DNA of 60,378 bases from Ruminococcus flavefaciens (GTDB taxonomy: Bacteria; Bacillota; Clostridia; Oscillospirales; Ruminococcaceae), in contig CACWHY010000015.1 in the NCBI GenBank assembly GCA_902760805.1, forward strand, positions 1 to 60,378. The letters are read 5' to 3'. Positions 23,053-36,862 of this stretch are shown here, piece after piece. The notes beneath the pieces are model-generated. The model did no database searches. It saw nothing but the letters and a program-made list of their open reading frames with translations, and was not told the DNA's origin. The translations under genes and the position numbers were made by a program. Every line of letters begins with the position of its first letter. Positions within the stretch are counted from its first letter, which is position 1.

Positions 23053-24180
23053 TCAAAGTCTGCTGCGGAAATCCTCATATCCGAAGGTCCTGAGAGTTTC
23101 CATGGATCCGTCAGCTTTTTTCAGGAGGATATCCGGCAGAGGCATACCGTTGAAGGTATTGTTCTTGACCATAGAGTAAATGGCCATATCTCCGAAGATC
23201 AGGCGTTTTCCGGGAGCAAGCTCCTCATCGAAGGAATACTCACCGATGAAGTCACCTGACAGGCAGGTCTGCGAGCCAAGGCGGTAGGTGAACTTCTTCT
23301 CACCGGGGAGACCGGAGCCGAAAAGCGGCGGACGATAGGGCATTTCCAGCACATCCGGCATATGGCAGGCCGCAGACGTGTCAAGGATAGCCGTGGGGAT
23401 ATCGCACTGGATCAGGTCCAGCACCTCAGTGACCAGATACCCGGCGTTTAGAGCGATAGCCTCGCCGGGCTCAAGATATACAGTCAGGCCGTATTTTTCC
23501 TGCAAGTGAGAGATGCATCTTTCAAGACGAGGGATGTCGTAGTCATCACGGGTGATGTGGTGTCCTCCGCCCAGGTTGATCCACTTCATTTTTGCCAGAA
23601 CATCGCCGAATTTCTCCTCCACAGCAGCAAGAGTTTTCTCCAGGTCGTCGGAATCCTGCTCACATAGCGTGTGGAAGTGCAGACCGGTCACGCCCTCCAG
23701 CTTATCTCTGCGGAAGTCCGCTAAACGAATGCCCAGCCTAGACTTAGGGGAGCAGGGATCATAGATCTCATGTCCCTCCTGAGTGGAGAGCTCTGGGTTT
23801 ATGCGAAGTCCTATCTCACGGCCGGCAGCCAGGGCTTTCTCCCGAAATTTATCCAGCTGAGAGAAGGAATTGAAAATGATATGGCCGCAGCAGCCAAGGA
23901 TCTCATCGAATTCGCTTTCACGGTAAGCGGAAGAGAAAACGTGATTTTCCTTGCCCATTTCCTCAGCTCCAAGCCTCGCCTCGAAAAGTCCGCTGCAAGC
24001 TGTTCCGCTGAGAAACTGTCCGATGAGAGGGTAAAGGTGATAGCAGGAGAAGGCCTTTTGCGCCAGGAGTATCCTGGCGCCTGTCCGCTGCTGAACGCCA
24101 TTCAAAATAGTCAAATTTTTGATCAGCTTTTCCTCGTCTATGATATAGCATGGAGTCTTGATCTTAGTAGTATCGAACAA
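23053..24180 (-). CDS. nspC: Carboxynorspermidine/carboxyspermidine decarboxylase
   Basis: About 375 residues. I place the start at a TTG (24180) because AGAGGTG lies 8 nt upstream; a GTG three codons earlier overlaps that SD. A PLP-dependent alanine-racemase-fold decarboxylase with 'LLAQKAFSCYHLYPLI' (PLP Lys), 'GLHFHTLCEQ', 'WINLGGGHHITR' and 'YLEPGEAIALNAGYL'. It removes CO2 from carboxyspermidine or carboxynorspermidine to give spermidine or norspermidine. Its partner synthase lies 1.3 kb away on the same strand, separated by an inverted diguanylate cyclase gene. Confidence 0.9.
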   Translation of the reverse strand: MFDTTKIKTPCYIIDEEKLIKNLTILNGVQQRTGARILLAQKAFSCYHLYPLIGQFLSGTACSGLFEARLGAEEMGKENHVFSSAYRESEFDEILGCCGHIIFNSFSQLDKFREKALAAGREIGLRINPELSTQEGHEIYDPCSPKSRLGIRLADFRRDKLEGVTGLHFHTLCEQDSDDLEKTLAAVEEKFGDVLAKMKWINLGGGHHITRDDYDIPRLERCISHLQEKYGLTVYLEPGEAIALNAGYLVTEVLDLIQCDIPTAILDTSAACHMPDVLEMPYRPPLFGSGLPGEKKFTYRLGSQTCLSGDFIGEYSFDEELAPGKRLIFGDMAIYSMVKNNTFNGMPLPDILLKKADGSMETLRTFGYEDFRSRL

Positions 24181-24230
24181 AATCAGCACCTCTTTGCGTA
24201 AAAATTCTTATAAATTTACAAAATAAATCA

Positions 24231-24259
24231 TTGCAAAATTTACGTTAACGTGGTAGAAT
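24231..24259 (+). promoter_or_regulatory. Promoter of the diguanylate cyclase gene, with palindrome in the spacer
   Basis: TTGCAA (24231-24236) and TAGAAT (24254-24259) with a 17-bp spacer that contains the perfect palindrome ACGTTAACGT (24242-24251). That palindrome is a possible operator in the region shared with nspC. Confidence 0.6.
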
Positions 24260-24296
24260 AAAATTGTATAAAAGTATACTCGACCGGAGGCCTTTT

Positions 24297-25424
24297 ATGA
24301 ATCTTCAGTCTATTTTTATGACCAACGGTGTCGGCTGCGTGATCCTAGTGATCCTGCTTATTTGCAGCCATATGGTCAGGCTGCGCCGGCAGGGCAGCGA
24401 TAAGCTGTTCACTTTGATGATAATGCTCACAGCAAGTGCCTGTGTGATCGAGCCCTTGACCTTCTATATGGACGGCAGGGCGCTTCCCTATGGCACGCTT
24501 CTGGTTGTTCTAGGAAACAGCTATCTATATATCATGAATGCTGTGGTCTCCTACTTGTGGCTGGTATATGTGGATTTGAGAATGTTCCAAAACAACCGCA
24601 GGATCAGGTCCCACTATGTGAAATACGCTATCCCTGCGCTGCTTGCTGTGATAGCGGTGATCCTGAATTTCAGGTTTCAGTTCCTTTTTTGTGTGGACGA
24701 TTATCAGCGCTATCATCGGCTGCCCCTTGGCTACGCTTATATTTCAATTACAGTGTTTTATCTTGTGGCAAGCCTTGTGGTGCGCAGGATCTATTACAAC
24801 AGATGCGGCCGAAACAGGTTTTTCCCGATATATATGTTCATTGCACCTATAGTTATCGGAGCAGCTGTCCAGGGCATTGCATACGGAGTCTCACTTGGCT
24901 GGTGCTCAGTTTCGCTGGGACTTGTAGGCCTATACATGAGTATCCAGAACGAGCTCTCCTACAGCGATCCCCTTACAAAGCTGTACAACCGCAATTATCT
25001 GGGACACATCATGAATGAGATCGTCCGCAAGAAGAATGGCTCCGGAGGCGTGATGATCGACCTTGACTACTTCAAGTCGATCAACGACAACTTCGGACAT
25101 ACCGTCGGAGATCAGGCTCTGGTGGACGCAGCCCAGCTCATCAAGAGCACTGTTCCCCCCAGCGCATTGACCGTCAGGTATGCCGGTGATGAATTCATCG
25201 TCATCGTCTATTCAGATGACGAGCGCCTTGTAAGAGAGATGATCGACCGTCTGCGAACAGCACTTGTGGATTTCAACGCCACAAGCCGCCGACAGTACAA
25301 GCTGAGCTTCTCCATAGGCTATGCAATGTATACTCCCGGAATGGACGCAGACCAGTTCCTCCACAAAATGGATACGGATATGTACGAGGAGAAGCGCCTC
25401 AAGCACAGCCGAGACAAAAACTGA
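24297..25424 (+). CDS. Membrane diguanylate cyclase (GGDEF)
   Basis: 375 residues from the ATG at 24297 (SD GGAGG, 6 nt upstream). The first roughly 215 residues form about seven membrane helices, a likely sensor. The GGDEF domain follows, with 'DPLTKLYNRNYL', 'MIDLDYFKSINDNFGH' and the active site A296-GDEF. Met-Asp metal and base-binding residues are intact. The inhibitory RxxD site is absent (Pro and Ala at those positions). It should make cyclic di-GMP. It is divergent from nspC; in Vibrio, polyamine sensing and c-di-GMP are linked, but a link here is inference. Confidence 0.88.
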   Translation: MNLQSIFMTNGVGCVILVILLICSHMVRLRRQGSDKLFTLMIMLTASACVIEPLTFYMDGRALPYGTLLVVLGNSYLYIMNAVVSYLWLVYVDLRMFQNNRRIRSHYVKYAIPALLAVIAVILNFRFQFLFCVDDYQRYHRLPLGYAYISITVFYLVASLVVRRIYYNRCGRNRFFPIYMFIAPIVIGAAVQGIAYGVSLGWCSVSLGLVGLYMSIQNELSYSDPLTKLYNRNYLGHIMNEIVRKKNGSGGVMIDLDYFKSINDNFGHTVGDQALVDAAQLIKSTVPPSALTVRYAGDEFIVIVYSDDERLVREMIDRLRTALVDFNATSRRQYKLSFSIGYAMYTPGMDADQFLHKMDTDMYEEKRLKHSRDKN

Positions 25425-25432
25425 ATACAGCA

Positions 25433-25457
25433 GGGCGGCCAGCCGGCCGCCCTTTTT
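25433..25457 (+). terminator. Terminator after the diguanylate cyclase gene
   Basis: Stem GGGCGGCC/GGCCGCCC with a 4-nt loop and five T, between convergent genes. Confidence 0.85.
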
Positions 25458-25460
25458 GCA

Positions 25461-26663
25461 TTAGTCCACCAGGACCGGATCGAAGTCCTCCTCCCAAGGC
25501 AGGCCCCACTTGTTGAGAGCCTCCATGAAGGGATCGGGATCAAATTCTTCGATGTTGTAAACGCCGGCCTTCTTCCAGGTGCCGGTCATGATCATCATAG
25601 CTCCGATCATAGCGGGAACGCCGGTGGTATATGAGATAGCCTGAGAGCCTACCTCCTTGTAGCACTCCTGATGATCGCAGATGTTGTACAGGTAGTAATT
25701 CTTGTCCTTGCCGTCCTTCTTTCCACGGAAGATACAGCCGATGTTGGTCTTGCCCACAGTTCTAGGGCCAAGTGAAGCTGGATCCGGGAGAACAGCCTTC
25801 AGGAACTGAAGGGGAACGATCTCCTTGCCCTCATACATAATTGGCTCGATAGAGGTCATGCCCACATTTTCCAGACACTTCAGGTGAGTCAGATAGCTCT
25901 GGCCGAAGGTCATGAAGAAGCGGATACGCTTGATGCCCTTGATGTTCAGAGCAAGGGACTCCAGCTCCTCATGGTGGAGCAGGTACATATCCTTCTGGCC
26001 AACGCCCTTGAAGTCGTACACACGCTTGATCTCCATGGGCTCAGTCTCCACCCACTTGCCGTCCTCGATGTAGCTGCCCTTAGCAGAGACCTCACGGATG
26101 TTGATCTCAGGGTTGAAGTTTGTGGCGAAGGGATAGCCGTGATCGCCGCCGTTGCAGTCGAGAATGTCGATGTAGTTGATCTCGTCGAACTCATGCTTCA
26201 TAGCGTAAGCGGAGAAAACTCCGGTAACACCGGGATCGAAGCCGCTTCCAAGGAGAGCAGTTATGCCGGCCTTCTCGAAGCGCTCACGGTAAGCCCACTG
26301 CCATTTGTACTCGAACTTAGCTGTGTCCAGGGGCTCATAGTTAGCGGTATCGACGTAGTGTGTTTTTGTAGCCAGACAAGCGTCCATGATCGTCAGATCC
26401 TGATAGGGAAGCGCGAGATTGAGCACAACATCGGGCTTGTAGCTTTCGATGAGAGCGATGAGCTCGTCCACATTGTCGGCATTGACCTGAGCGGTCTCGA
26501 TGACAGTTTTTGTGATAGGCTGGAGCTTTTCCTTGAGTGCGTCGCACTTAGACTTAGTGCGGCTTGCGATCATGATCCCTTCAAAGACCTCGCTGTTCTG
26601 ACAGCACTTGTGGATAGCAACGGAAGCAACTCCTCCGCAGCCGATTATCATACATTTTCCCAT
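25461..26663 (-). CDS. Carboxynorspermidine/carboxyspermidine synthase (dehydrogenase)
   Basis: 400 residues of the saccharopine-dehydrogenase-like family. The Rossmann motif is 'IIGCGGVASVAIHKC', followed by 'ASRTKSKCDAL', 'YVDTANYEP', 'GSGFDPGVTGVFSAYA' and 'ILDCNGGDHGYPFATNFNPEINIRE' (in part), which are typical of CASDH rather than lysine-pathway enzymes. It joins aspartate semialdehyde to putrescine (or diaminopropane) with NADPH. Its product is the substrate of NspC. It is the last gene of the speD operon, 23 bp after the DUF3592 gene. Confidence 0.9.
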   Translation of the reverse strand: MGKCMIIGCGGVASVAIHKCCQNSEVFEGIMIASRTKSKCDALKEKLQPITKTVIETAQVNADNVDELIALIESYKPDVVLNLALPYQDLTIMDACLATKTHYVDTANYEPLDTAKFEYKWQWAYRERFEKAGITALLGSGFDPGVTGVFSAYAMKHEFDEINYIDILDCNGGDHGYPFATNFNPEINIREVSAKGSYIEDGKWVETEPMEIKRVYDFKGVGQKDMYLLHHEELESLALNIKGIKRIRFFMTFGQSYLTHLKCLENVGMTSIEPIMYEGKEIVPLQFLKAVLPDPASLGPRTVGKTNIGCIFRGKKDGKDKNYYLYNICDHQECYKEVGSQAISYTTGVPAMIGAMMIMTGTWKKAGVYNIEEFDPDPFMEALNKWGLPWEEDFDPVLVD

Positions 26664-26686
26664 TTCTGGTTCCTCCTTGTAAAATA

Positions 26687-27157
26687 TTAGTAGCCTCTGA
26701 TCAACTCAAAGATCTTGTCGATAAGAGGGATCCTTATGCCAAAAATAATGAAGTACAGCAGACCTGCAGCTACAGCGATACAAACAGGTATAGAGAGCAG
26801 ATAGCCCTTGCGCTGCTTTTTTATCTCGTCCACAGGGACGAATGTGCCCTTTTCCGGGTCAGCCAGTATGTCGTATTCGGTATCGGCAGAAAACTTCTCA
26901 GATATGTCTTTTTCATTGTAGGTGAGGAGCTCATCGCTTTCTCCCTGAACACTGCTGCCGTCGATGATGTAGGTCATCTGAACACGGATCCCGCTGTCCT
27001 TTTTGATCGCAGGCGGATCTATGAGCCTTCCTTTAGCGGGGACGCCCTTTCGCTGGTATTTTCCCAGCTTTATGAGAGACTTTATACTGAAGAACACATA
27101 CCATATCGAGCCCAGTATAAAGAATATCATTGAAAGTGAAACGAACGAAAATCTCAT
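26687..27157 (-). CDS. DUF3592-type membrane protein 1
   Basis: 156 residues with a membrane helix at each end and a beta-rich extracytoplasmic middle ('VQMTYIIDGSSVQGESDELLTYNEKD', 'ADTEYDILADPEKGTFVP'), the DUF3592 pattern. Function is unknown. Good SD (AAGGAGG). Together with its neighbour it forms a divergent duplicate pair inside the polyamine operon. Confidence 0.72.
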   Translation of the reverse strand: MRFSFVSLSMIFFILGSIWYVFFSIKSLIKLGKYQRKGVPAKGRLIDPPAIKKDSGIRVQMTYIIDGSSVQGESDELLTYNEKDISEKFSADTEYDILADPEKGTFVPVDEIKKQRKGYLLSIPVCIAVAAGLLYFIIFGIRIPLIDKIFELIRGY

Positions 27158-27175
27158 ATATGTAGGCCTCCTTTA

Positions 27176-27655
27176 TCACGGATCTTCCGAGATCTCATCA
27201 TCATCATCATCACTGAGACCGTTTTTCCGAGCGAAGAATTTTACGATCAGCGGATAGATGATACCGAAGCCGATCAATAACCAGCCTGCACCAGTAAATA
27301 CCCACTCAAACAGCTTGAAAGACTTATCGCCCTTTACAAAAAACTTAGTTGGATCTTTTGATGAAATGAGCAGTTCTGCGGTATCTCCTACATTGAAAGA
27401 AGCCGGATATGAGCCCACAGAGTACCGTGCACTGTAGACATTTCCGTCGTATTCAAACTGAAATATCGGGTAGTAGTTTTGACTGCCATCTGTGTACTCC
27501 AACTGGTTATCTATTACAGTGCCGGTGGTGGAGACATCGCAGTCATTCATGAGTTTTTCGTGGTTGCTGGTGATCTTATGTCCGGCGAATACAAAAACAG
27601 CACCGAATAGAATGAATGCGATGTTGATCAGCAAAGAAATACCGGTTTTTCTCAT
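27176..27655 (-). CDS. DUF3592-type membrane protein 2
   Basis: 159 residues: N-terminal helix, a beta domain with 'QLEYTDGSQNYYPIFQFEYDGNVYSARY' (in part) and 'DTAELLISSKDP', a second helix, then an acidic tail (DDDDDEISED). It has the same layout as the downstream protein. The start overlaps the agmatinase stop by 4 nt, so it is coupled to polyamine synthesis. Function is unknown. Confidence 0.72.
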   Translation of the reverse strand: MRKTGISLLINIAFILFGAVFVFAGHKITSNHEKLMNDCDVSTTGTVIDNQLEYTDGSQNYYPIFQFEYDGNVYSARYSVGSYPASFNVGDTAELLISSKDPTKFFVKGDKSFKLFEWVFTGAGWLLIGFGIIYPLIVKFFARKNGLSDDDDDEISEDP

Positions 27656-28503
27656 GACAGCGCCAACAGCATTTCTCTGATGATCATGCAGGCAACAGCT
27701 GTGGAAACTCCGCTCTGATCGTAAACAGGCGAGAGTTCGTTGACGTCACAGCCCACGATATTCAGCCTGCTGCAAACCAGAGTAAGAGCTCGCCGAAGCT
27801 CATCGAAGGAAACTCCACCAGCCTCAGGAGTGCCGGTCCCCGGGAAGATAGAGGGGTCCAGAACGTCCAGATCCACGGTAAGATAGACGTTTTTGCCCTT
27901 GAGCTTTTCCACAGTTTCTTCAAGACCGTCAAAATTGAACTTGTGCATCTCAGTGTGCTCATCTGCGAAGCGGAATTCGTCACGGTCGCCGCTGCGTATG
28001 CCGAACTGGAAGATATGGCCGTCGCCGACGTGCTCATAGCAGCGCCGCAGAACGCAGGCGTGGCTGAGCTGCTGCCCCAGATACTCGTCACGAAGGTCAG
28101 CGTGGGCGTCAAAATGCACGATGTACAGGTCATCGTATCTGTCCTTAACTGCCATTACAGAGCCCAAAGTAACAAGGTGCTCGCCGCCTATCATGAAGGG
28201 CAGCTTTCCGTCGCTGAGGATCAGATCTGAGCGCATAGCGATGTCAGCGATAGCCCGTGTAGTGCTTCCGAATGGCAGCTCAATGTCTCCGCTGTCTAAG
28301 TATGAGTAGTCCAGCATATCCTTGTCCTGATAGGGACTGTAGGTCTCGATGCCGAAGCTCTCGTTCCTTATTGCAGAGGGAGCAAATCTTGTCCCCGGGC
28401 GGAAGCTGGTAGTACCGTCGAATCCGGCGCCGAAAAGCACGATCTTAGCCTGATCGTACTCACTGTCGCAGGCGATAAAGGTGGAAATATTCTTATTCAA
28501 CAT
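27652..28503 (-). CDS. speB: Agmatinase
   Basis: 283 residues from the ATG at 28503 (SD GAGGAG, 10 nt upstream); the longer frame lies inside speE. A ureohydrolase with the dimanganese ligands 'GGEHLVTLG', 'VHFDAHADLRDEY' and 'LTVDLDVLDPSIFPGTGTPE'. It hydrolyses agmatine to putrescine and urea. Together with the neighbouring decarboxylase it gives arginine to agmatine to putrescine. It overlaps speE by 11 nt. Confidence 0.9.
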   Translation of the reverse strand: MLNKNISTFIACDSEYDQAKIVLFGAGFDGTTSFRPGTRFAPSAIRNESFGIETYSPYQDKDMLDYSYLDSGDIELPFGSTTRAIADIAMRSDLILSDGKLPFMIGGEHLVTLGSVMAVKDRYDDLYIVHFDAHADLRDEYLGQQLSHACVLRRCYEHVGDGHIFQFGIRSGDRDEFRFADEHTEMHKFNFDGLEETVEKLKGKNVYLTVDLDVLDPSIFPGTGTPEAGGVSFDELRRALTLVCSRLNIVGCDVNELSPVYDQSGVSTAVACMIIREMLLALS

Positions 28504-29344
28504 CTCTGAGCATCTCCTCAACGTAATTTGGCAGGGCGAAAGCGCCGCAGTGGAGCTGTGTGTTGTAGTATTTTGTCTCAAGACCGAGCATACTCCACTT
28601 AGTAGCGTTGTAGTCTCTTACCGGGTGATATTTTTTCGAGGCAAAGCCGAAAAGCCAGTGACCCGAGGGATATGTAGGGATATGAGCCTGATAAACTCTG
28701 CTGATGGGGAAGCTCTCCACGATCCTCTTGTGGGAGCGCTGCATAGCGGCGGCGTCTTCGTCATAAAAGGGGCTCTCGTGCTGGTTGACCATGATACCGT
28801 CCTCACGGAGTGCCTTGAAGCAGCTTCCGTAGAACTCCTTGGTGAAAAGTCCCTCGCCGGGGCCGAATGGGTCCGTGGAGTCCACGATGATCACATCGTA
28901 TTTGTTCTCGCAGCTCCTAATGAACTTCACACCGTCCTCATAGTGGATATGGACCCTCTCGTCGTCGAGGCGGCAGGCAGTAGTCGGCAGGAACTTCTTG
29001 CTGACCTCCACCACCAGCTCATCTATCTCCACAAGATCTATAGACCGAACTGAATTATAGCGAGTGAGCTCACGGATAACACCGCCGTCGCCGGCACCGA
29101 TCACAAGGATATCCTTCGGGTCTGGGTGAACAGCCATAGGAACGTGAGTGATCATCTCATGATAGATGAACTCGTCCTTCTCAGTGAGCATCATATAGCC
29201 GTCCAGAGTGAGGAAACGTCCGAATTCCTTTGATGCGAACACATCTATCCGCTGGAATTCGCTGTTTCCGCTGTAAAGCTGTCTGTCCACTTTTATGGAG
29301 AATTTAACGTTTGGAGTATGTCTCTCAGTAAACCATAATTCCAT
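28493..29344 (-). CDS. speE: Spermidine synthase
   Basis: 283 residues, typical length. It transfers aminopropyl from decarboxylated SAM to putrescine. Motifs are 'YHEMITHVPMAVHPDPKDILVIGAGDGG' (in part), 'DLVEIDELVVEVSKKFLP' and 'DVIIVDSTDPFGPGEGLF', the last holding the catalytic Asp. SD GGAGG before ATG 29344. It sits between the decarboxylase and agmatinase genes. Confidence 0.95.
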   Translation of the reverse strand: MELWFTERHTPNVKFSIKVDRQLYSGNSEFQRIDVFASKEFGRFLTLDGYMMLTEKDEFIYHEMITHVPMAVHPDPKDILVIGAGDGGVIRELTRYNSVRSIDLVEIDELVVEVSKKFLPTTACRLDDERVHIHYEDGVKFIRSCENKYDVIIVDSTDPFGPGEGLFTKEFYGSCFKALREDGIMVNQHESPFYDEDAAAMQRSHKRIVESFPISRVYQAHIPTYPSGHWLFGFASKKYHPVRDYNATKWSMLGLETKYYNTQLHCGAFALPNYVEEMLRDVE

Positions 29345-29358
29345 AATTTCCTCCTGTC

Positions 29359-30813
29359 TCAGCTGAGCTTCATTACGTTCAGCCGCTCTATATTAAGGTC
29401 CTCAGTGCCGGTCATCTGGCAGCCCTTCTCCTTTGCATAGCGGATATACTCAATGATCTCAGGAGTTATGAGCTCGCCGGGGGAGAGTATAGGAATGCCC
29501 GGGGGATAGCACATGACCGACTCTGTGCAGACTCTGCCAATGCTCTCCTCCAGCGGGAGAGACTCCTTCTGAGCATAGAAGGCCTTTCGTGGAGCTTCTG
29601 CAACAACAGGGTTGATGTACTCTTGAGTGAGGAGCCCGGCGCCTTCCTTTCCGAAGCGGCGTTTTATCTCGGAAAGAGCGCTGATGAGCCGCTCAATGTC
29701 ACGCTTGCGGTCGCCCACGGAGATGTAGGCCAGGATATTTCCGATGTCGCCAAACTCTATCTGTATGTCGTATTCATCTCTCAGCAGGTCGTAGACCTCA
29801 ATGCCGGCCAGTCCCACAGGCAGCGTGAACACCGAGAGCTTTGACACGTCGAAATCGTAGATGCTGTCGCCGTTTATGAGCTCCTTGGAGTAAGCGTAGT
29901 ATCCGCCGATACTGTTGATCTCGCTGCGAGCATACTCCGCCATAGCAACAGCCTCTGCGAAGATCTCTTTTCCGCTGAGAGCAAGCCTTTTCCTGGAAAT
30001 ATCCAGGCTGGACAGCAGCAGATAGGAGGCGCTGGTGGTCTGGGTCAGGTTGACGATCTGTCTCATATAGTCGGAGTTCACGTTCTTTCCCATGAGCAGG
30101 AATGAGCTCTGAGTGAGGCTGCCTCCTGACTTGTGCATACTGACGCTGGCGCAGTCCGCACCGGCCGCCATAGCAGTGATGGGGAAGTTGTCGCCGAAGT
30201 AGAAGTGAGTACCGTGAGCCTCGTCCACCAGCACCAGCATACCGTGCTCATGGGCAAGCTCAGTGATCCTTTTCAGGTCGGAGCATATACCGTAGTAGGT
30301 AGGGTTGTTGACCATTATGGCCTTAGCGTCAGGGTTGGCTTTGATAGCCTCCTCCACCTGAGAAACGCTCATTCCCAGGGCGATGCCGAGCTGATGATTG
30401 ACATCGGGATCCACATAGACCGGGACAGCACCCGTTAAGATCAGGGCGTTGATAGCACTGCGGTGGACGTTTCTTGGCATGATGATCTTTTCGCCCTCCT
30501 TGCAGGCGTACATGATCATGCTCTGAACAGCTGAGGTAGTACCTCCCACCATGAAGAAAACGTTAGCCGCACCGAAGGCCTGAGCCGCAAGGTCCTCAGC
30601 GTCCCTGATAACAGACACCGGGTGGCACAGGTTATCCAGAGGCTTCATGGAGTTCACATCTGCGTTCATGCAGTCCTCACCGAGAAATTCAGTCAGCTCC
30701 ATATTTCCACGCCCACGCTTGTGTCCCGGCACGTCGAAGGGGACCACTCTCATTCGCCGCAGCCGGCGGAGAGCCTCATAAATGGGTGCATTAACTTGGG
30801 AGAGCTCAGCCAT
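29359..30813 (-). CDS. speA: Arginine/lysine/ornithine decarboxylase (aminotransferase fold)
   Basis: 484 residues, the length of the Bacillus SpeA type. PLP-binding elements are '[10 protein letters not shown]', '[11 protein letters not shown]', '[12 protein letters not shown]' and '[13 protein letters not shown]', with the Schiff-base Lys at about residue 228. The exact substrate cannot be read from the sequence. The downstream agmatinase argues for arginine, giving agmatine. It overlaps the speD stop by 8 nt. Confidence 0.9.
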
Positions 30814-31576
30814 TTCCGAACACGTTCCTTCCGCTGAAAATTTCGATCATCTCACGCTGCAAAGCGTTCGTTATGTCAAGGCGGCTTCGTGGAGACAGCT
30901 CCCTGACATCGGTGTTGAACAGGTAGTTTTGCAGCTCGATCTCTTTGATGAGCATTTTTGTGTGGAACATATTAGCCTGATAAACGTTTATGTCCACAGC
31001 GTCGTATTTATCGAGAATCTTGTCGTCGATGTAGTTCTGGATAGAGGTTATGTCATGGTCGATGAAGAGCTTTTCGCCGTCAAGATTTCTGGTGAAGCCT
31101 CTTACACGGTAGTCCATAGTGATAATGTCGGAATCGAAGCTTCCGATGAGGTAATCCAGGGCAGTAAGAGGAGTGATCTTGCCGCAGGTGGCAACGTCTA
31201 TATCCACACGGAAGGTAGCTATGCTGGTATCCGGGTGGTATTCCGGGTAAGTGTGAACAGTTACATGGCTCTTGTCAAGATGAGCAACTGTTTCGGTACC
31301 GCCGGCAGGGACCATAGTGTCGTCGGCGATAAGGAAGGTAGCAGAAGCGCCCTGAGGCTCGTAATCCTGCCTTGACATACTCAGCACCTGAGCGCCTATC
31401 ATCTCAGTTAGGTGGTACATTATGTCAGTGATACGCTCTGAGTTGTACACCTCATCAACATAAGCGATGTAGTCCAGCTGCGCCTTTGGGGTCTTGGCAT
31501 AACAGACGTCGTAGATGTTGAAGCTGAGTGATTTTGTCAGATTATTGAAGCCATATAGCTTGAGCTTATTTTCCAT
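30806..31576 (-). CDS. speD: S-adenosylmethionine decarboxylase proenzyme
   Basis: 256 residues from the ATG at 31576 (SD GAGGTG, 8 nt upstream; upstream frame rejected). The long, Escherichia-type proenzyme. Self-cleavage should occur between Lys102 and Ser103 in '[14 protein letters not shown]', leaving a pyruvoyl group on the new N-terminal Ser. It makes decarboxylated SAM for SpeE. It is first in the polyamine operon and is preceded by a long structured leader ending in a terminator. Confidence 0.94.
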
Positions 31577-31903
31577 AAAACACACCTCAAAATAAAAAAG
31601 CACATACTGGCAATATCAGCCTGTATGTGCGTAAGTTCCATTGACCGGGCGCAGAAACTTCCTCGGGTTTCAGAGTCTATAAAGCTAAGATACCTTTTAC
31701 TACTCTTATTGACCTTTCACAAGCTGGGTTAGACCTTCCAAAAACTTATAAAATGTTATCGACCATTTGGTCGAATCAATAAGGCAACAGAAGTTGCCAG
31801 CCGCATGAGCGGCGATCGGCATTTGACCCGGCTGTCCGTATGGCCTTTCCTCCGGTGGAGTGGTCAAAAATCTTGCTCTGAAACCGAAGCTTCTTTTGCA
31901 ATT
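31577..31903 (-). ncRNA. Structured leader RNA upstream of speD (candidate riboswitch)
   Basis: About 325 nt between the promoter and the speD ATG, without a convincing ORF. A 10-bp closing stem pairs 31876-31885 with 31666-31675 (GGTTTCAGAG/CTCTGAAACC). Inside it lie a 7-bp helix TTTGACC/GGTCAAA (31822-31828, 31862-31868) and hairpins CTCC/GGAG (31850-31860), GCCGC/GCGGC (31800-31813), GGCAAC/GTTGCC (31783-31798) and TCGACC/GGTCGA (31759-31774). A stem AAGTTCC/GAAACTT (31633-31660) and a terminator (31591-31630) follow just before the SD. I cannot match it to a riboswitch class I know. A ligand such as SAM or a polyamine is inference. Confidence 0.6.
31591..31630 (-). terminator. Attenuator terminator in the speD leader
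   Basis: Stem GCACATAC/GTATGTGC (31600-31607 and 31623-31630) followed on the minus strand by a U-rich run, placed only a few bases before the speD SD. Confidence 0.8.
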
Positions 31904-31909
31904 TAATCT

Positions 31910-31938
31910 ATTTTATCACTTTTTGAGTATTTTGTCAA
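31910..31938 (-). promoter_or_regulatory. Promoter of the speD polyamine operon
   Basis: On the minus strand, TTGACA (31938-31933) and TAAAAT (31915-31910) have a 17-bp spacer. Confidence 0.75.
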
Positions 31939-31974
31939 TAGAAATTTTGAAATTGTTCTGCAAACTCCCATGTA

Positions 31975-32003: not shown

Positions 32004-32069
32004 TATTTTGAGAAAAATGCACGGAAATGCCCTTCTCAGTTGTTTATGCTTATGAAAGGGGGGAGAGCC

Positions 32070-32561
32070 ATGGATAAAGGCGATACAGCGCTTTATGCGT
32101 TCAGAAAATACGGCGACACGGTTATCCGTGCAGCCTATGCGGTCTGCGGCAGCTACCATGAAGCCGAGGACATCACACAGGAGGTCTTTCTGAAGCTGCA
32201 CTCGTCAGGTCAGAGCTTTTCCGGGGATGATCACCTTAAGGCATGGCTTCTTCGAGCGGCCATAAATCGGGCAAAGAATTATAAGAAGAGCTTTCGGGTG
32301 AGCCGGACGGACTTCGCTGATGAGGAAGCAGAAAATGTCTTTGCAGCGGAGGACTCCCATGAAGCTAAGGCGATACAGGAGGCCATAAAAAGGCTCCCGG
32401 AGAGATACTCCTCAGTGATCTTCCTCTATTACTACGAGGGCTACAATGCCCGAGAGATCGGTGAGATCCTTGGCATAAGCGAGAACACAGCATCATCACG
32501 GCTCACAAGAGGACGGAAAAAGCTCAAAGCTGAGCTGGAGAAGGAGGGCTATCATGAATAA
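32070..32561 (+). CDS. ECF-type RNA polymerase sigma factor
   Basis: 163 residues from the ATG at 32070 (SD GGGGGGAG). Region 2 is 'AAYAVCGSYHEAEDITQEVFLKLH', with 'HLKAWLLRAAINRAKNYKKS'. Region 4 is 'AIKRLPERYSSVIFLYYYEGYNAREIGEILG', with the helix-turn-helix 'SENTASSRLTRGRKKLKAEL'. It directs RNA polymerase to a dedicated regulon. It overlaps the downstream membrane protein by 8 nt, the usual arrangement for a sigma factor and its anti-sigma factor. Confidence 0.92.
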   Translation: MDKGDTALYAFRKYGDTVIRAAYAVCGSYHEAEDITQEVFLKLHSSGQSFSGDDHLKAWLLRAAINRAKNYKKSFRVSRTDFADEEAENVFAAEDSHEAKAIQEAIKRLPERYSSVIFLYYYEGYNAREIGEILGISENTASSRLTRGRKKLKAELEKEGYHE

Positions 32562-34563
32562 GATCTACAGAGAACAGCTGGACAAGATCTGCTGCTCAGA
32601 CAGCTTCCGTGCAGAAATGGAGGAAAAGCTCTCATCACCGCCGGAGGAGCAGACAGGTGACTATGTTGATCAGGTGGAGGCAGCTCCAAAGCGCAGTATC
32701 AAGCGATTTGCAGCGGTCGCAGCCGCAGCGGTGCTGGTTTTGGGAGCAGGAGGACTTCTCTGGCACGGTATCACACGGACGCCCGATGTTCCCGGGGATG
32801 AGACCAAGGAGCAGACCCAGATCCACCCGTCCACCATGGATTTTGACGGATTTGAGTTCACCCTCAGCGGCGATGACCAGTCGAAGAAGACGCTTTCCGC
32901 CGAGGAAGCAGCCTGGCTGGAGGACTATCTTTCCCAGATCACATTAGTCGAGACAGGCGGCAGCTTTGATTTTGACGATCAGGTAATGAGTTTTTACCGC
33001 CTTGAAGGAGACCTTGAACACAGCATCAGGATCTCCGGGGCTTTTAGCCAGAATGAGCTGTACATCTGGTACATGGAGGTCAGCAGCACAAACGAAGAGA
33101 TGATCTCCGACTATGACCAGCTCTATCTGATCCCTTCTGAGAGCTGTCAGGTGATCCGTGACCGTCTTTTCGGAAGCACTGAGACTGCGGTCGCTTCAGC
33201 GCCGTTCAAGTTTACAGACATGAGCTCCTTCGAGTATCATGACCCGGAAACAGGCGAGATCCTGCGCCACTGGCCGAGAAGAGAGTACATCTGCCAGCGT
33301 TTGCAGGAGTTTTTCGACTCTCTCAGCTGGCCGGATGCGGTGCCTTCCAAGTTCAGCGAAACTCCGCCGGGATCCTTTGTTTTCGATGATCTCGACGGTA
33401 AGGGGTCCGGAGCAGACAGCTTCGTCTTTTCACCGGAGGGCACGCTATGGTATATCGACCGCTCAGGCGCCGAGGACTCAGTTACCATGTATAGTTTCAC
33501 CCCGGACGACTATCAGCGGTTTTTGGAGCTTTACCGGGATCTTTTCAGTTATTCGTCTATGATCAAAAACGAATTCTATAGCATCAACTGCCCGGCTGCG
33601 ATTTTTTACGGTGAATTTGGCTCACAGCACGGCGACGCAGTTCAGATAAAGGTGAGCGACACATCAGCGCTGGAGCAGATCCTCGCCGCAAAGGAGTGGG
33701 TGGAAGTTGATTTTGAGGCTCAGTATGTGGGCAGAGAGTACCGTCTTGGGACTATGGCCTTTATGGAAAACGGAGTGATCCGCTTTGATAGCGGCGAGAT
33801 GATCCAGCCGGCAGACGGCGACTCTTCTGATTACCTTGACTGGCTGAAGGCAGCTCTCTATGCCGATCCGCTGGCTGCCGGAATGGCTGCGCTCCTTCTG
33901 CCTGAAGAGAGCTACGAAACCATGTCTGCGACCATAACCGATCTGGCTCTGGAGCTCTCCTACAACGACGAGTCCGGCCTTATGAAGACCTTCACAGATA
34001 AGGGCACAGGAAGTCTCTGGCTCAACAAGAAGACTGCCGATGAGTACCTTTCAATTACCGGAGAGAATGGCTTTTCCGCAGCTCTTTCCGGTCAGGACGG
34101 AGAATTCATCTACCGCAGAACCGCCGGAGATCTACCCCTTGATGGCCCGGATGAGCTCTCGACCTCGCTGTTTTTCAACGAGCAGCCTATCGAGCAGATC
34201 TACGGCATGAGGCACTATGTTTCTGATAGACTACAAAGGATCTCAAAACAATGGATAAGCGGACAGAGCGAGGTCTACGCATACTGCACAACGTCTGACG
34301 GAAGGAGATCATCGACCATAAGCGGCGATGCTCGGACGCTCGTATATGACAGTGATAAGATCGCTGAGGAAGGCGTTACTACGGTAAGCTGTCTTTTCAC
34401 CGATGTTGATGAGCAGTCCCATGTTCTCAGCCTGAAAGTTGACACTAAGGGCAATGTGATAAAATATTGCGAGCAGCTGAAAGAGACCGGCCAGGTGCTG
34501 TGCAAGCTGGATCTTTCAGATGTTAAATACGATGATCAGGCGGAGGAGCGACCTTCTTACTGA
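32554..34563 (+). CDS. Large membrane-anchored anti-sigma-like protein
   Basis: 669 residues. The cytoplasmic N-terminus (about 50 residues, opening MNKIYREQLDKICCSD) is short, with two adjacent cysteines. One membrane helix (about 51-71, 'FAAVAAAAVLVLGAGGLLW') leads to a very large extracytoplasmic region of mixed alpha/beta content that I cannot assign. The position, overlapping the sigma gene, suggests that it sequesters and senses for that sigma factor. The sensor portion is unusually long compared with typical anti-sigma proteins. A terminator follows directly. Confidence 0.75.
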   Translation: MNKIYREQLDKICCSDSFRAEMEEKLSSPPEEQTGDYVDQVEAAPKRSIKRFAAVAAAAVLVLGAGGLLWHGITRTPDVPGDETKEQTQIHPSTMDFDGFEFTLSGDDQSKKTLSAEEAAWLEDYLSQITLVETGGSFDFDDQVMSFYRLEGDLEHSIRISGAFSQNELYIWYMEVSSTNEEMISDYDQLYLIPSESCQVIRDRLFGSTETAVASAPFKFTDMSSFEYHDPETGEILRHWPRREYICQRLQEFFDSLSWPDAVPSKFSETPPGSFVFDDLDGKGSGADSFVFSPEGTLWYIDRSGAEDSVTMYSFTPDDYQRFLELYRDLFSYSSMIKNEFYSINCPAAIFYGEFGSQHGDAVQIKVSDTSALEQILAAKEWVEVDFEAQYVGREYRLGTMAFMENGVIRFDSGEMIQPADGDSSDYLDWLKAALYADPLAAGMAALLLPEESYETMSATITDLALELSYNDESGLMKTFTDKGTGSLWLNKKTADEYLSITGENGFSAALSGQDGEFIYRRTAGDLPLDGPDELSTSLFFNEQPIEQIYGMRHYVSDRLQRISKQWISGQSEVYAYCTTSDGRRSSTISGDARTLVYDSDKIAEEGVTTVSCLFTDVDEQSHVLSLKVDTKGNVIKYCEQLKETGQVLCKLDLSDVKYDDQAEERPSY

Positions 34564-34570
34564 CATACCC

Positions 34571-34601
34571 AAGACCGCAGAGATCCTGCGGTCTTGTTTT
34601 T
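34571..34601 (+). terminator. Terminator after the sigma/anti-sigma pair
   Basis: Perfect 10-bp stem AAGACCGCAG/CTGCGGTCTT with a 5-nt loop and a T-run. Confidence 0.9.
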
Positions 34602-34605
34602 GCTC

Positions 34606-34634
34606 TTTACGATCAAGGAAAAAAATGGTATAAT
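34606..34634 (+). promoter_or_regulatory. Promoter of the membrane-fused spermidine-synthase-like gene
   Basis: TTTACG (34606-34611) and TATAAT (34629-34634) with a 17-bp spacer ending in TGG; the -35 is weak. Confidence 0.6.
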
Positions 34635-34687
34635 GGATTTGCATAAAAACAGAGTGACAGACAATACTCAGCAAAAAGGAGCAGGTC

Positions 34688-36292
34688 ATGGAACAAAAAA
34701 AGCAAAGCCCCGGGATCCTTTCCCGGAAGTGGTACCTATATTTGACGGAGTTTTTTGCAGGAATGTCTGTAATGGCGGTGGAGCTGGGAGCGAGCCGGCT
34801 TTTGGCGCCATATTTCAGCTCCTCCCAGATAGTCTGGACCATCATCATCGGAACTATCATGATCGCCATGGCTCTGGGAAACATCTATGGCGGCCGCAGC
34901 GCTGATAAGGACCCCGACCCCGATCGGCTCTACAAGCGGATCTTAGTGGCGGCGGTGTGGATAGCGGCGATCCCGTTCCTGGGCAAGCTGGTCATCGTAG
35001 GAGTTACGGCCCTTCTGGTAGTGACAGTGAGCACGAATTTCCTTATCTGGGCAGCATTTCTGACCTGTATGATCGTTTTCGTCTATCCGCTGTTCCTTCT
35101 TGGCACAGTCACGCCCTCGCTGGTGAAGTACACCGTTGACAGTCTTGATGACAGCGGCAAAACGGTGGGTACTCTTGGCGCATTCAACACTATCGGAAGT
35201 ATAATCGGCACATTTGTCCCCACATTCGTTTCGATCCCTGCTGTGGGAACTGCCGCTACCTTCGTGATCTTCTCCGGGATCCTTCTGATCATCGGGGCAG
35301 CCTACTTCATATCTGCCAAGCGAGGCAGAGGAGCGGCGGCTGTATCTGCTGGATTTTTCGCTGTATGCGGAGTCCTTTCCCAGGTCATGGGCTTTGCCTT
35401 CTGGGAAAAGGATCTGGCCTACGAAGGGGAGTCTGTCTACAATTACCTCCAGGTGAAGGAGGACGACCGCAGGACTGCTCTCTCCACGAATGTACTTTTC
35501 GGAGTGCAGTCGGTCTACATGAAAAGCGGCGAGCTCTCCGGTCTTTACTACGACTACGCAATGGCAGCCCCCTTAATGGCGGAGGCTCCCGACGATACCA
35601 CCGACATCCTGATCCTCGGCAACGGCACCGGCACCTACGCTAAGCAGTGTTTGAACTATTTTGACAGAGTTACCGCAGAGGGCGTGGAGATCGACGATAA
35701 GATCACCGATCTTGCTCGGGAGTATTTCGACCTGCCCGAGCAGGTGAAGGTCACCACCTATGACGGCAGAGCCTTTCTCAATGTTTGCGAGAAGAAGTAT
35801 GACGTGATAATGGTGGACGCCTATCAGGACATAACGATCCCTTTTCAGATGTCCTCCACTGAGTTCTTCCAGCAGGTGAAGGGCAGCCTTAAAGAAGGCG
35901 GAGTAATGGTAGTGAACATGAATATGCGCTCCAAGGATGAGGACGGCATAAACGGCTGGCTGACAGATACTATCTGCTCGGTTTTCAGCCAGGTCTACAC
36001 AGCGGACGTTTCCGGCTCCTCCAACAGAGAGCTTTTTGCTTCTGACGATCCTCAGGCGCTGGAGAGGTTTCGCCAAAGAGCCTCAGAGCTTGATGATCAG
36101 GAGCTTTACACTATGATGAGCCGGGTAAATGACGGCCTTGTTCGCTGTGAGGGGGAAGACAAGATCCTCACCGACGACAAAGCGCCTGTGGAGCTCCTTG
36201 GCATGAGCGTTATCGACGAGATCATCAGCGAGGAGCTTGACTACTACAAGGAGGCCTTCCGTGAAGAGGGCATACATGGTCTGATCCAGTAA
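34688..36292 (+). CDS. Membrane-fused spermidine-synthase-like protein
   Basis: 534 residues. The N-terminal half has about eight membrane helices of the MFS-like domain often fused to aminopropyltransferase-like domains ('FFAGMSVMAVELGASRLLAPYF', 'LGNIYGGRSADKDPDP'). The C-terminal half is a Rossmann methyltransferase-type domain ('ILGNGTGTYAKQCL', 'VEIDDKITDLAREYF', 'YDVIMVDAYQDITIP'). The catalytic DS/TxD of true spermidine synthase reads DAYQD, so aminopropyl transfer is uncertain. The substrate is unknown. SD AAAGGAG lies upstream of ATG 34688. The HD gene follows after 9 bp. Confidence 0.8.
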   Translation: MEQKKQSPGILSRKWYLYLTEFFAGMSVMAVELGASRLLAPYFSSSQIVWTIIIGTIMIAMALGNIYGGRSADKDPDPDRLYKRILVAAVWIAAIPFLGKLVIVGVTALLVVTVSTNFLIWAAFLTCMIVFVYPLFLLGTVTPSLVKYTVDSLDDSGKTVGTLGAFNTIGSIIGTFVPTFVSIPAVGTAATFVIFSGILLIIGAAYFISAKRGRGAAAVSAGFFAVCGVLSQVMGFAFWEKDLAYEGESVYNYLQVKEDDRRTALSTNVLFGVQSVYMKSGELSGLYYDYAMAAPLMAEAPDDTTDILILGNGTGTYAKQCLNYFDRVTAEGVEIDDKITDLAREYFDLPEQVKVTTYDGRAFLNVCEKKYDVIMVDAYQDITIPFQMSSTEFFQQVKGSLKEGGVMVVNMNMRSKDEDGINGWLTDTICSVFSQVYTADVSGSSNRELFASDDPQALERFRQRASELDDQELYTMMSRVNDGLVRCEGEDKILTDDKAPVELLGMSVIDEIISEELDYYKEAFREEGIHGLIQ

Positions 36293-36301
36293 GGAGGAGC
36301 T

Positions 36302-36862
36302 ATGGAAGCCAAGGAATTTCTGGAGATCCTTCACACTGCCGAGACCCTGAAGGATACTCTCCGACACTGCACTACATCAAACCGCCGCACTGAGAGCGTT
36401 GCCGAGCACAGCTGGCGTGCAGCTCTCATGGCGCTTCTTTTAAGGGAAGAATTCCCGGAGCTTGACACAGACCGTGTCATTAAAATGTGCATCGTCCACG
36501 ATCTGGGCGAGTGCTTCACCGGTGACATCCCCACCTTTGAAAAGAATGACAGTCACCGAAAGACCGAGGATCAGCTTTTGGAGGAGTGGGTCAAGGGACT
36601 TCCGCAAGGTGTTTCCCATGAGCTGAGCAGGCTGTTTTGGGAGATGAACGCTCAGAATACGCCGGAGGCTCGTCTGTTCAAGGCTATCGACAAGCTGGAG
36701 GCGCTGATCCAGCACAACGAGTCACCCATCGACACCTGGTCTGAAAACGAGTACGAGCTGAACAAGACCTACGCCTTTGATACCGTGAGTTTTTCAGACT
36801 GGCTGACAGACTTGCGCAAGGAGATCCTCAGCGAGACTCTGCAAAAGATCGGCGATCAATGA
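36302..36862 (+). CDS. HD-domain hydrolase (YfbR-like 5'-nucleotidase family)
   Basis: 186 residues. HD-domain metal ligands are seen in 'RTESVAEHSWRAALMALLL' (His) and 'KMCIVHDLGECFTGDIP' (His-Asp), plus 'LFKAIDKLEALIQHNE' with the last Asp. It is related to YfbR-type 5'-deoxynucleotidases, which dephosphorylate nucleoside monophosphates; the exact substrate is inferred. SD AAGGAGG. It is the last gene before a strong terminator. Confidence 0.85.
   Translation: MEAKEFLEILHTAETLKDTLRHCTTSNRRTESVAEHSWRAALMALLLREEFPELDTDRVIKMCIVHDLGECFTGDIPTFEKNDSHRKTEDQLLEEWVKGLPQGVSHELSRLFWEMNAQNTPEARLFKAIDKLEALIQHNESPIDTWSENEYELNKTYAFDTVSFSDWLTDLRKEILSETLQKIGDQ

Follow-up and report, generated by a model that had tools for sequence, protein, structure and literature searches.

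Natural riboswitches for polyamines have long been sought. According to the available portion of its description, the published spermidine riboswitch is a variant of SAM-I that presents the four-stem architecture of that class, is located before speD, speE, speB and ldcC genes, and acts as an OFF switch through spermidine-induced transcription termination (Salvail et al. 2023, PMC10853860). It is presented in that same portion as a group of rare variants, narrowly distributed, and the authors expect further classes (Salvail et al. 2023, PMC10853860). Other candidate RNAs before polyamine genes, as outlined in the accessible sections of PMC8632094, are the odc1 motif of alphaproteobacteria, an extended hairpin with a pseudoknot, and the potE motif of Veillonella and environmental samples, whose model is poorly supported by covariation. 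In addition, Rfam holds the family RF02440 (SpF59_sRNA / ldcC RNA, 54 nt), of type 'Gene; sRNA'. In the available excerpts, the pneumococcal F59 is an 82-nt RNA between SP0915 and SP0916 (PMC3395615); a table of sRNA candidates gives it, under srn235/F59/Spd_sr49/M7, 327 nt at TIGR4 coordinates 869478-869804 (PMC12323649).

The leader described here precedes speD in a window of 60,378 nt of Ruminococcus flavefaciens DNA, which is the whole stretch that was analysed. It extends on the minus strand from about 31903 to 31577, that is, about 327 nt up to the ATG at 31576, taking an assumed transcription start site. The original prediction had proposed a leader of about 325 nt behind a good promoter, with a stem and an intrinsic terminator just before the Shine-Dalgarno sequence of speD; these elements were recovered, the promoter at 31938-31910 with 11 of 12 matches and the terminator at 31630-31594. 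The features of the locus are the following:

31910..31938, minus strand: sigma-70-type promoter TTGACA-17-TAAAAT with TG before the second hexamer (extended -10); 11/12 consensus matches, assigned by consensus only
31664..31886, minus strand: whole structured RNA, candidate aptamer P0 to P10; covariance model R1 gives 140.1 bits (E 7.6e-33) at 31906-31669, the window itself being among the 58 sequences behind R1
31876..31886, minus strand: 5' strand of P0, the closing stem GGTTTCAGAG/CTCTGAAACC (10 bp); partner at 31675-31664
31870..31877, minus strand: 5' strand of P1, AGCAAGAT; partner at 31691-31683 (ATCTTAGCT, one bulge); crosses P10
31816..31866, minus strand: RF02440 domain, with P2 (TGACC/GGTCA), the P3 hairpin and P2.1 (GGC/GCC) with loop CATACGGACA; peripheral
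31800..31814, minus strand: P4, optional hairpin, seen by eye in only some relatives
31783..31798, minus strand: P5 hairpin GGCAAC/GTTGCC, covarying strongly (its 6 pairs show 28 or more compensatory changes on the tree)
31776..31782, minus strand: 5' strand of P6, TTATTGA; partner TCAATAA at 31712-31706; inner six pairs invariant
31759..31774, minus strand: P7 hairpin, 9 compensatory changes
31715..31753, minus strand: P8' stem, TTTTATAAG (31753-31745) with CTTGTGAAA (31723-31715), with inner hairpins; its 3' strand is the proposed switching strand
31718..31726, minus strand: 5' strand of the putative antiterminator, CAGCTTGTG; partner TACAGGCTG at 31625-31617, in the terminator 5' arm; duplex in the window -12.8 kcal/mol
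31702..31705, minus strand: 5' strand of P10, GAGT (GAGU/ACUC); partner ACTC at 31676-31673
31594..31630, minus strand: intrinsic terminator GCACATACAGGCTGATATTGCCAGTATGTGC-TTTTTT, stem 31630-31600 plus U tract; -16.3 kcal/mol
31576..31588, minus strand: Shine-Dalgarno sequence GAGGTG and first base of the speD start codon
30806..31576, minus strand: speD, adenosylmethionine decarboxylase (TIGR03331, 390.9 bits against a cut-off of 255.8)
29359..30813, minus strand: Orn/Lys/Arg-type decarboxylase; best matches are lysine, arginine and ornithine decarboxylases, each under its cut-off
28493..29344, minus strand: speE, spermidine synthase (TIGR00417, 336 bits against 249.55)
27652..28503, minus strand: speB, agmatinase (TIGR01230, 277.2 bits against 174.3); the ORF start may be further upstream

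A simple scan gave three promoters and three terminators, against a mean of 2.6 of each in shuffles. Since these counts are not above those of shuffles, the case for the leader rests on the comparison with relatives.

The operon presents the order speD, Orn/Lys/Arg decarboxylase, speE, speB. Further downstream there are nspC and a carboxyspermidine dehydrogenase-like gene (CASDH), which reaches 407 bits with the NCBIfam carboxynorspermidine synthase model, below its cut-off of 800. One cluster (23053-31576, minus strand) holds SpeD/SpeE of the SAM route together with CASDH-like/NspC of the SAM-free route, and this mixed gene order is also observed in many relatives. On the opposite strand, a diguanylate-cyclase (GGDEF) gene (24264-25424, plus strand) lies between the CASDH-like gene and nspC. 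The region divergent from speD (32040-36862, plus strand) contains an ECF sigma factor gene followed by a large ORF overlapping its end, a fused MFS/spermidine-synthase-like gene (207.8 bits against a cut-off of 40) and a weak 5'-deoxynucleotidase-like ORF.

The search of the whole window with cmscan placed RF02440 at 31866-31816 (65.8 bits, gathering score 37.2, positions 1-54 of 54), and the source genome carries one copy. Therefore, the earlier claim that the RNA matches no known family does not hold, although what is matched is a fragment labelled sRNA; the match is a confident one, but it covers a single 54-nt peripheral domain of an RNA of about 230 nt. In a permissive cmscan of 31560-31960 (401 bases, E up to 5), three matches were obtained besides RF02440, all below their gathering scores. 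SAM, cobalamin, T-box, lysine, FMN, THF, M-box and RNase P were not among the leader matches at E up to 5, in agreement with the original prediction, which had recognised none of their cores.

Relatives were gathered in two ways, through the 5' Rfam domain and through a 3' pattern independent of it, and those of both routes are alike over about 230 nt. The 3' pattern yielded at least 119 stretches, with Paenibacillus, Acetobacterium, Faecalibacterium, Blautia and Bacillus testis among their titles; Mediterraneibacter is also among the genera with the RNA family, according to the record titles of the 3'-pattern matches listed. The RF02440 core CGGnCAG was not recognisable in 33 of the 106 loci with at least 300 nt upstream among the 3'-pattern matches listed (13 more were too short to judge). 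Inspection by eye indicated that in some of these the whole Rfam domain is absent and in others the loop alone is replaced. As the core is missing in many 3'-anchored loci, the part known to Rfam is peripheral, and the constant core appears to lie elsewhere, in P1, P6, P8', the segment CUUGUGAAA and P10. In two leaders located before CASDH genes (L056, L118), a different hairpin end takes the place of the conserved CATACGGACA loop and the stems around it are retained. Natural versions of 154 and 166 nt without the Rfam domain (L095:5433-5586 and L069:4203-4368) are still found before speD, and would be suitable as minimal constructs.

The RF02440 fragment was present in 18 of 398 genomes sampled from the phylum and, with an E-value limit of 0.001, in 88 of 394 sampled from the order (85 above the cut-off); among 14 controls it matched Lactococcus lactis. 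The model R1 was built from 58 of 79 less similar sequences, taken from 97 with a recognisable core, with those carrying long inserts or deletions left out. R1 matches each of 80 sources (63 outside its building set, 17 by construction), and four further matches in that search, with E 0.24-0.92, look like noise. For a second set of 100 sources, which took in 83 of the 119 3'-pattern loci listed, it gave 100 matches (69 outside the building set, 31 by construction). In 14 further loci the scores went from 198 down to 18 bits; the weak members are L217 (18 bits only) and L240 (31.3). Furthermore, R1 was found in 18 of 299 genomes of the phylum, seven of them lacking an RF02440 match, and in 34 of 119 genomes of the family, with no match in the genus mate G593. 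The RNA had no match in viral contigs (pattern search) or phages (blastn), and one record matched among 72,556 plasmid records. This copy (NZ_CP054613.1, 2204053-2204232; 84.2% identical over 75% of the query) is carried by a 2.7-Mb replicon of Paenibacillus cellulosilyticus recorded as a plasmid, with no gene annotation at the copy (L261).

From the comparison of about 200 relatives, thirteen helices are proposed for an RNA of about 230 nt, and compensatory changes are seen in nine of them. The fold of 31886-31664 has an energy of -76.4 kcal/mol, whereas shuffled versions average -54.9 (z -4.97; 0/200 shuffles as good). Across the family, P1 pairs a AGCAAAUA-like strand with UAUUUGCU; it is absent from the unconstrained fold of the window, and in the fitted alignment, where its strands are aligned by sequence only, it pairs in only 76% of cells. 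P10 covaries (GAGC/GCTC in L046 and L209, GCGT/ACGC in L032) and flanks the 3' strand of P1, so that both would probably form a pseudoknot. The last 5'-strand bases of P0 overlap P1 and its 3' strand overlaps P10, and not all of these helices can coexist; the final fold is uncertain because P0 and P10 share CTCT in the window. In the proposed fold, P8 and P9 sit on P8', which is nearly invariant, each of its 10 pairs being formed in 73 to 80 of 80 rows; an extended P8' swap test gave no covariation (z +2.5, the wrong sign). In P6, six pairs never vary, which speaks neither for nor against them, and the outer T-A is unpaired in 5/80. Because the inner pairs of P6 never vary and P8' hardly does, these two helices are to be taken as consistent with the sequences and unproven by covariation. 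In L147, L086 and L119 (and in L054 and L160) the 5' core and P6 are separated by long inserts that reach about 150 nt; judged by eye, the inserts apparently belong to the P7 or P8/P9 region, and the flanking conserved blocks are kept.

The covariation was evaluated on an alignment of 81 sequences selected manually from 104 (the window plus 103 loci retrieved through the Rfam domain); the 23 omitted were near-duplicates, cut loci and some divergent ones (e.g. L193, L203, L210, L217, L221). Pairing holds in 93.2% of the cells of this alignment, and both sides vary in 35 of its 55 pairs; double-change cells number 409, compared with 119 for shuffles. None of 500 shuffles was as high on this or any other of five measures, and pairing fell to 21-47% when the partners were slid by 1-3 columns. 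The minimum numbers of compensatory changes, counted on a tree built from the same alignment that it tests, were 61 for P9, 43 for P3, 28 for P5, 12 for P1, 9 for P2, 9 for P7, 6 for P8, 3 for P2.1 and 3 for P10. For tests of strands independent of alignment, 53 of 223 loci were not anchored, and 160 of the remaining 170 gave P0/P1 segments; these were reduced to 126 less similar sequences, 120 of them with a terminator. By partner exchange among the 126, P1 (z -12.9, 0/2000) and P0 (z -10.0, 0/2000) covary, in permutations that ignore the relatedness of the sequences. The 10-bp closing stem and the structure originally predicted, for which an absence of covariation was to count as refutation, come out well: the stem is present, its counterpart covaries among relatives, and covariation extends to the other helices named above, with P6 and P8' too invariant to test. 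The leader is thus a conserved structured 5' leader with covariation, in which P6 and P8' are invariant.

The stem of the terminator stops 11 nt short of the Shine-Dalgarno sequence. The simple scan passed over this terminator, probably because an A-A mismatch interrupts the stem. In 162 of the 170 anchored loci an intrinsic terminator lies within about 450 nt of P6, and in the other 8 none was detected. Its 5' arm pairs with an aptamer segment composed of the P9 3' arm and the P8' 3' strand; in the window, the pair is CAGCUUGUG with UACAGGCUG. By partner exchange in the 120 sequences, again in permutations that take no account of relatedness, this segment fitted its own terminator 5' arm with z -12.3 (0/2000), while six other aptamer segments gave z from -1.2 to +2.1, so only P9/P8' goes beyond chance; against the terminator 3' arm its signal was weaker (z -4.5). 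At or below -10 kcal/mol were 110 of the 120 duplexes, against 35% for shuffled arms, and 10 were weaker. Mean duplex energies were between -14.8 and -18.7 kcal/mol in each gene context (17 potA or unassigned, 52 speD, 35 decarboxylase, 10 CASDH). At the level of sequence, there are consequently a terminator and a mutually exclusive antiterminator that shares a strand with the aptamer, and the leader is, with very high probability, a cis-acting attenuator.

To which genes this attenuator belongs was assessed in 214 anchored loci (16 of 230 were left out and near-duplicates were retained), recognising the downstream genes by similarity to the window's own proteins, and PotA by motif. The first recognised gene was a polyamine gene in 208 of the 214, a consistent link to the genes of one metabolite: 94 speD, 62 Orn/Lys/Arg decarboxylase, 26 carboxyspermidine dehydrogenase and 26 potA. 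Of the other six, four were at a contig end and two were different (L196, and L221 with speD 2.1 kb on). Two PotA fragments that were scanned had spermidine/putrescine ABC ATP-binding proteins as best matches, below whole-protein cut-offs as fragments must be, and permease-like and binding-protein-like ORFs were seen by eye downstream of potA in L147, L145 and L066. In the 26 CASDH-headed loci no speD or speE match was found downstream in the DNA examined. The carboxyspermidine route produces spermidine from aspartate semialdehyde and putrescine without SAM; SAM, decarboxylated SAM (dcSAM) and MTA are not involved in the CASDH-NspC route. The SAM route, the SAM-free route and import all lead to one end product, spermidine. 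Because the RNA heads all three, spermidine is the likeliest ligand, and the leader is probably a riboswitch-type attenuator by which spermidine would turn the operon OFF. SAM, dcSAM and MTA are unlikely, as the RNA also heads the SAM-free carboxyspermidine and polyamine-uptake operons. The original prediction of a ligand-controlled terminator before a polyamine operon thus agrees with the terminator, the covarying antiterminator and the gene link found in the sequences; of the ligands it had suggested (a polyamine, SAM/dcSAM or a related metabolite), a polyamine stands, spermidine fitting the contexts best, and SAM/dcSAM are poor candidates.

In the mechanism that we propose, the polymerase would first make a compact aptamer (P0-P10, about 230 nt) that contains the P1/P10 pseudoknot. 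Its stabilisation by spermidine would keep the strand CUUGUGAAA locked in P8' and the 3' arm of P9 within that helix; nothing would then prevent the terminator downstream from forming, and transcription would stop just before the gene. When spermidine is scarce, the strand would be released and pair with the terminator 5' arm; with the antiterminator paired there would be no terminator, and speD, the decarboxylase, speE and speB would be transcribed. The direction of the switch follows from the fact that one strand cannot be in P8' and in the antiterminator at once: a ligand that steadies the aptamer should favour termination. The computation supports the terminator, the conservation of the antiterminator pairing, the link to the genes and the greater part of the structure; from these we infer the binding of a small molecule, spermidine as that molecule, and the direction of the switch.

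The same cis attenuator could respond to another ligand (putrescine, cadaverine, agmatine, carboxyspermidine, SAM, dcSAM or MTA), a reading that we consider unlikely. It is favoured by the fact that the decarboxylase and speB make diamines or their precursors, that the scanned transporter fragments are named spermidine/putrescine and that the operon also uses SAM. However, SAM, dcSAM and MTA are outside the CASDH-NspC route, which the RNA heads in 26 loci devoid of a downstream speD/speE match. Putrescine too takes part in the pathways headed by the RNA and is a possible ligand, though as an OFF ligand it would repress CASDH-NspC, the enzymes that consume it. That the leader responds to a protein or to leader-peptide translation instead of a metabolite has a low probability, even if both kinds of attenuator are common. 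In a scan of start codons and frame lengths in 81 sequences, one invariant TTG inside P6 opened a 9-codon frame in 45, but no ATG occurred at one alignment column in more than 21, and the frames from conserved TTG and GTG codons were short and of unequal length. Moreover, the RNA resembles aptamers in its large size, its long conserved stretches and its optional domains.

The labels of RF02440 and of the pneumococcal catalogues would suggest a stand-alone trans-acting sRNA, which is the least probable of these readings and, in our opinion, a very improbable one. As we mentioned before, the Rfam type is 'Gene; sRNA'; the accessible parts of the catalogues count F59 among the sRNAs of Mann et al. 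(PMC3395615), and table M7/srn235/F59/Spd_sr49 among sRNA candidates from which known cis-regulators had been removed (PMC12323649). Nevertheless, the position of the RNA before polyamine genes, of four kinds, in 208 of the 214 anchored loci, together with the terminator and the covarying antiterminator, is what a cis regulator needs, and a short transcript would be explicable as a terminated leader; the RNA may still have a secondary role in trans. The pneumococcal candidates upstream of SP0916, of 82 nt and 327 nt in the excerpts available, are such as a terminated leader might give, which is consistent with the cis-acting attenuator and not proof of it.

Taken together, the sequence comparisons lean towards a class of spermidine riboswitch that would be the second one, independent in structure and widespread in Bacillota. 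It would be a large, multi-domain, pseudoknotted RNA with a constant core (P1, P6, P8', P10) outside RF02440, an optional peripheral domain and the one catalogued piece that was found, and it would coordinate both biosynthetic routes and polyamine uptake by one antiterminator logic. If this is true, it would account for a pneumococcal 'sRNA' candidate, provide a feedback control of polyamine production in many gut bacteria, and make available a large RNA fold that discriminates a small flexible polycation, a hard recognition problem. In the available parts of the open-licence full texts listed, including PMC8632094, PMC8040213, PMC2864571 and PMC11109978, this RNA was not found as a riboswitch or polyamine switch.

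With respect to the known systems, the kind of device is known and the leader is a candidate for a new class of it; a fragment of the RNA had already been recorded under another label. RF02440 is a homologous domain, matched in the leader over all 54 model positions; it stands for one 54-nt domain taken as an sRNA, whereas the RNA of the window has about 230 nt, precedes polyamine genes and carries a terminator switch. The pneumococcal F59 / srn235 / Spd_sr49 / M7 is tied to it by Rfam's name. The odc1 and potE motifs are set apart by their descriptions, as far as the accessible sections go (PMC8632094). The SAM-I-variant spermidine riboswitch was rejected as a homologue, since no SAM family (RF00162-like) appeared at E up to 5, and is a functional analogue. 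As far as its available description allows the comparison, it works as we propose for the leader of the window, by OFF termination before polyamine genes, but the conserved sequence and the proposed pseudoknotted layout are different and, unlike those of the SAM-I variant, the targets of this RNA family include potA and carboxyspermidine operons.
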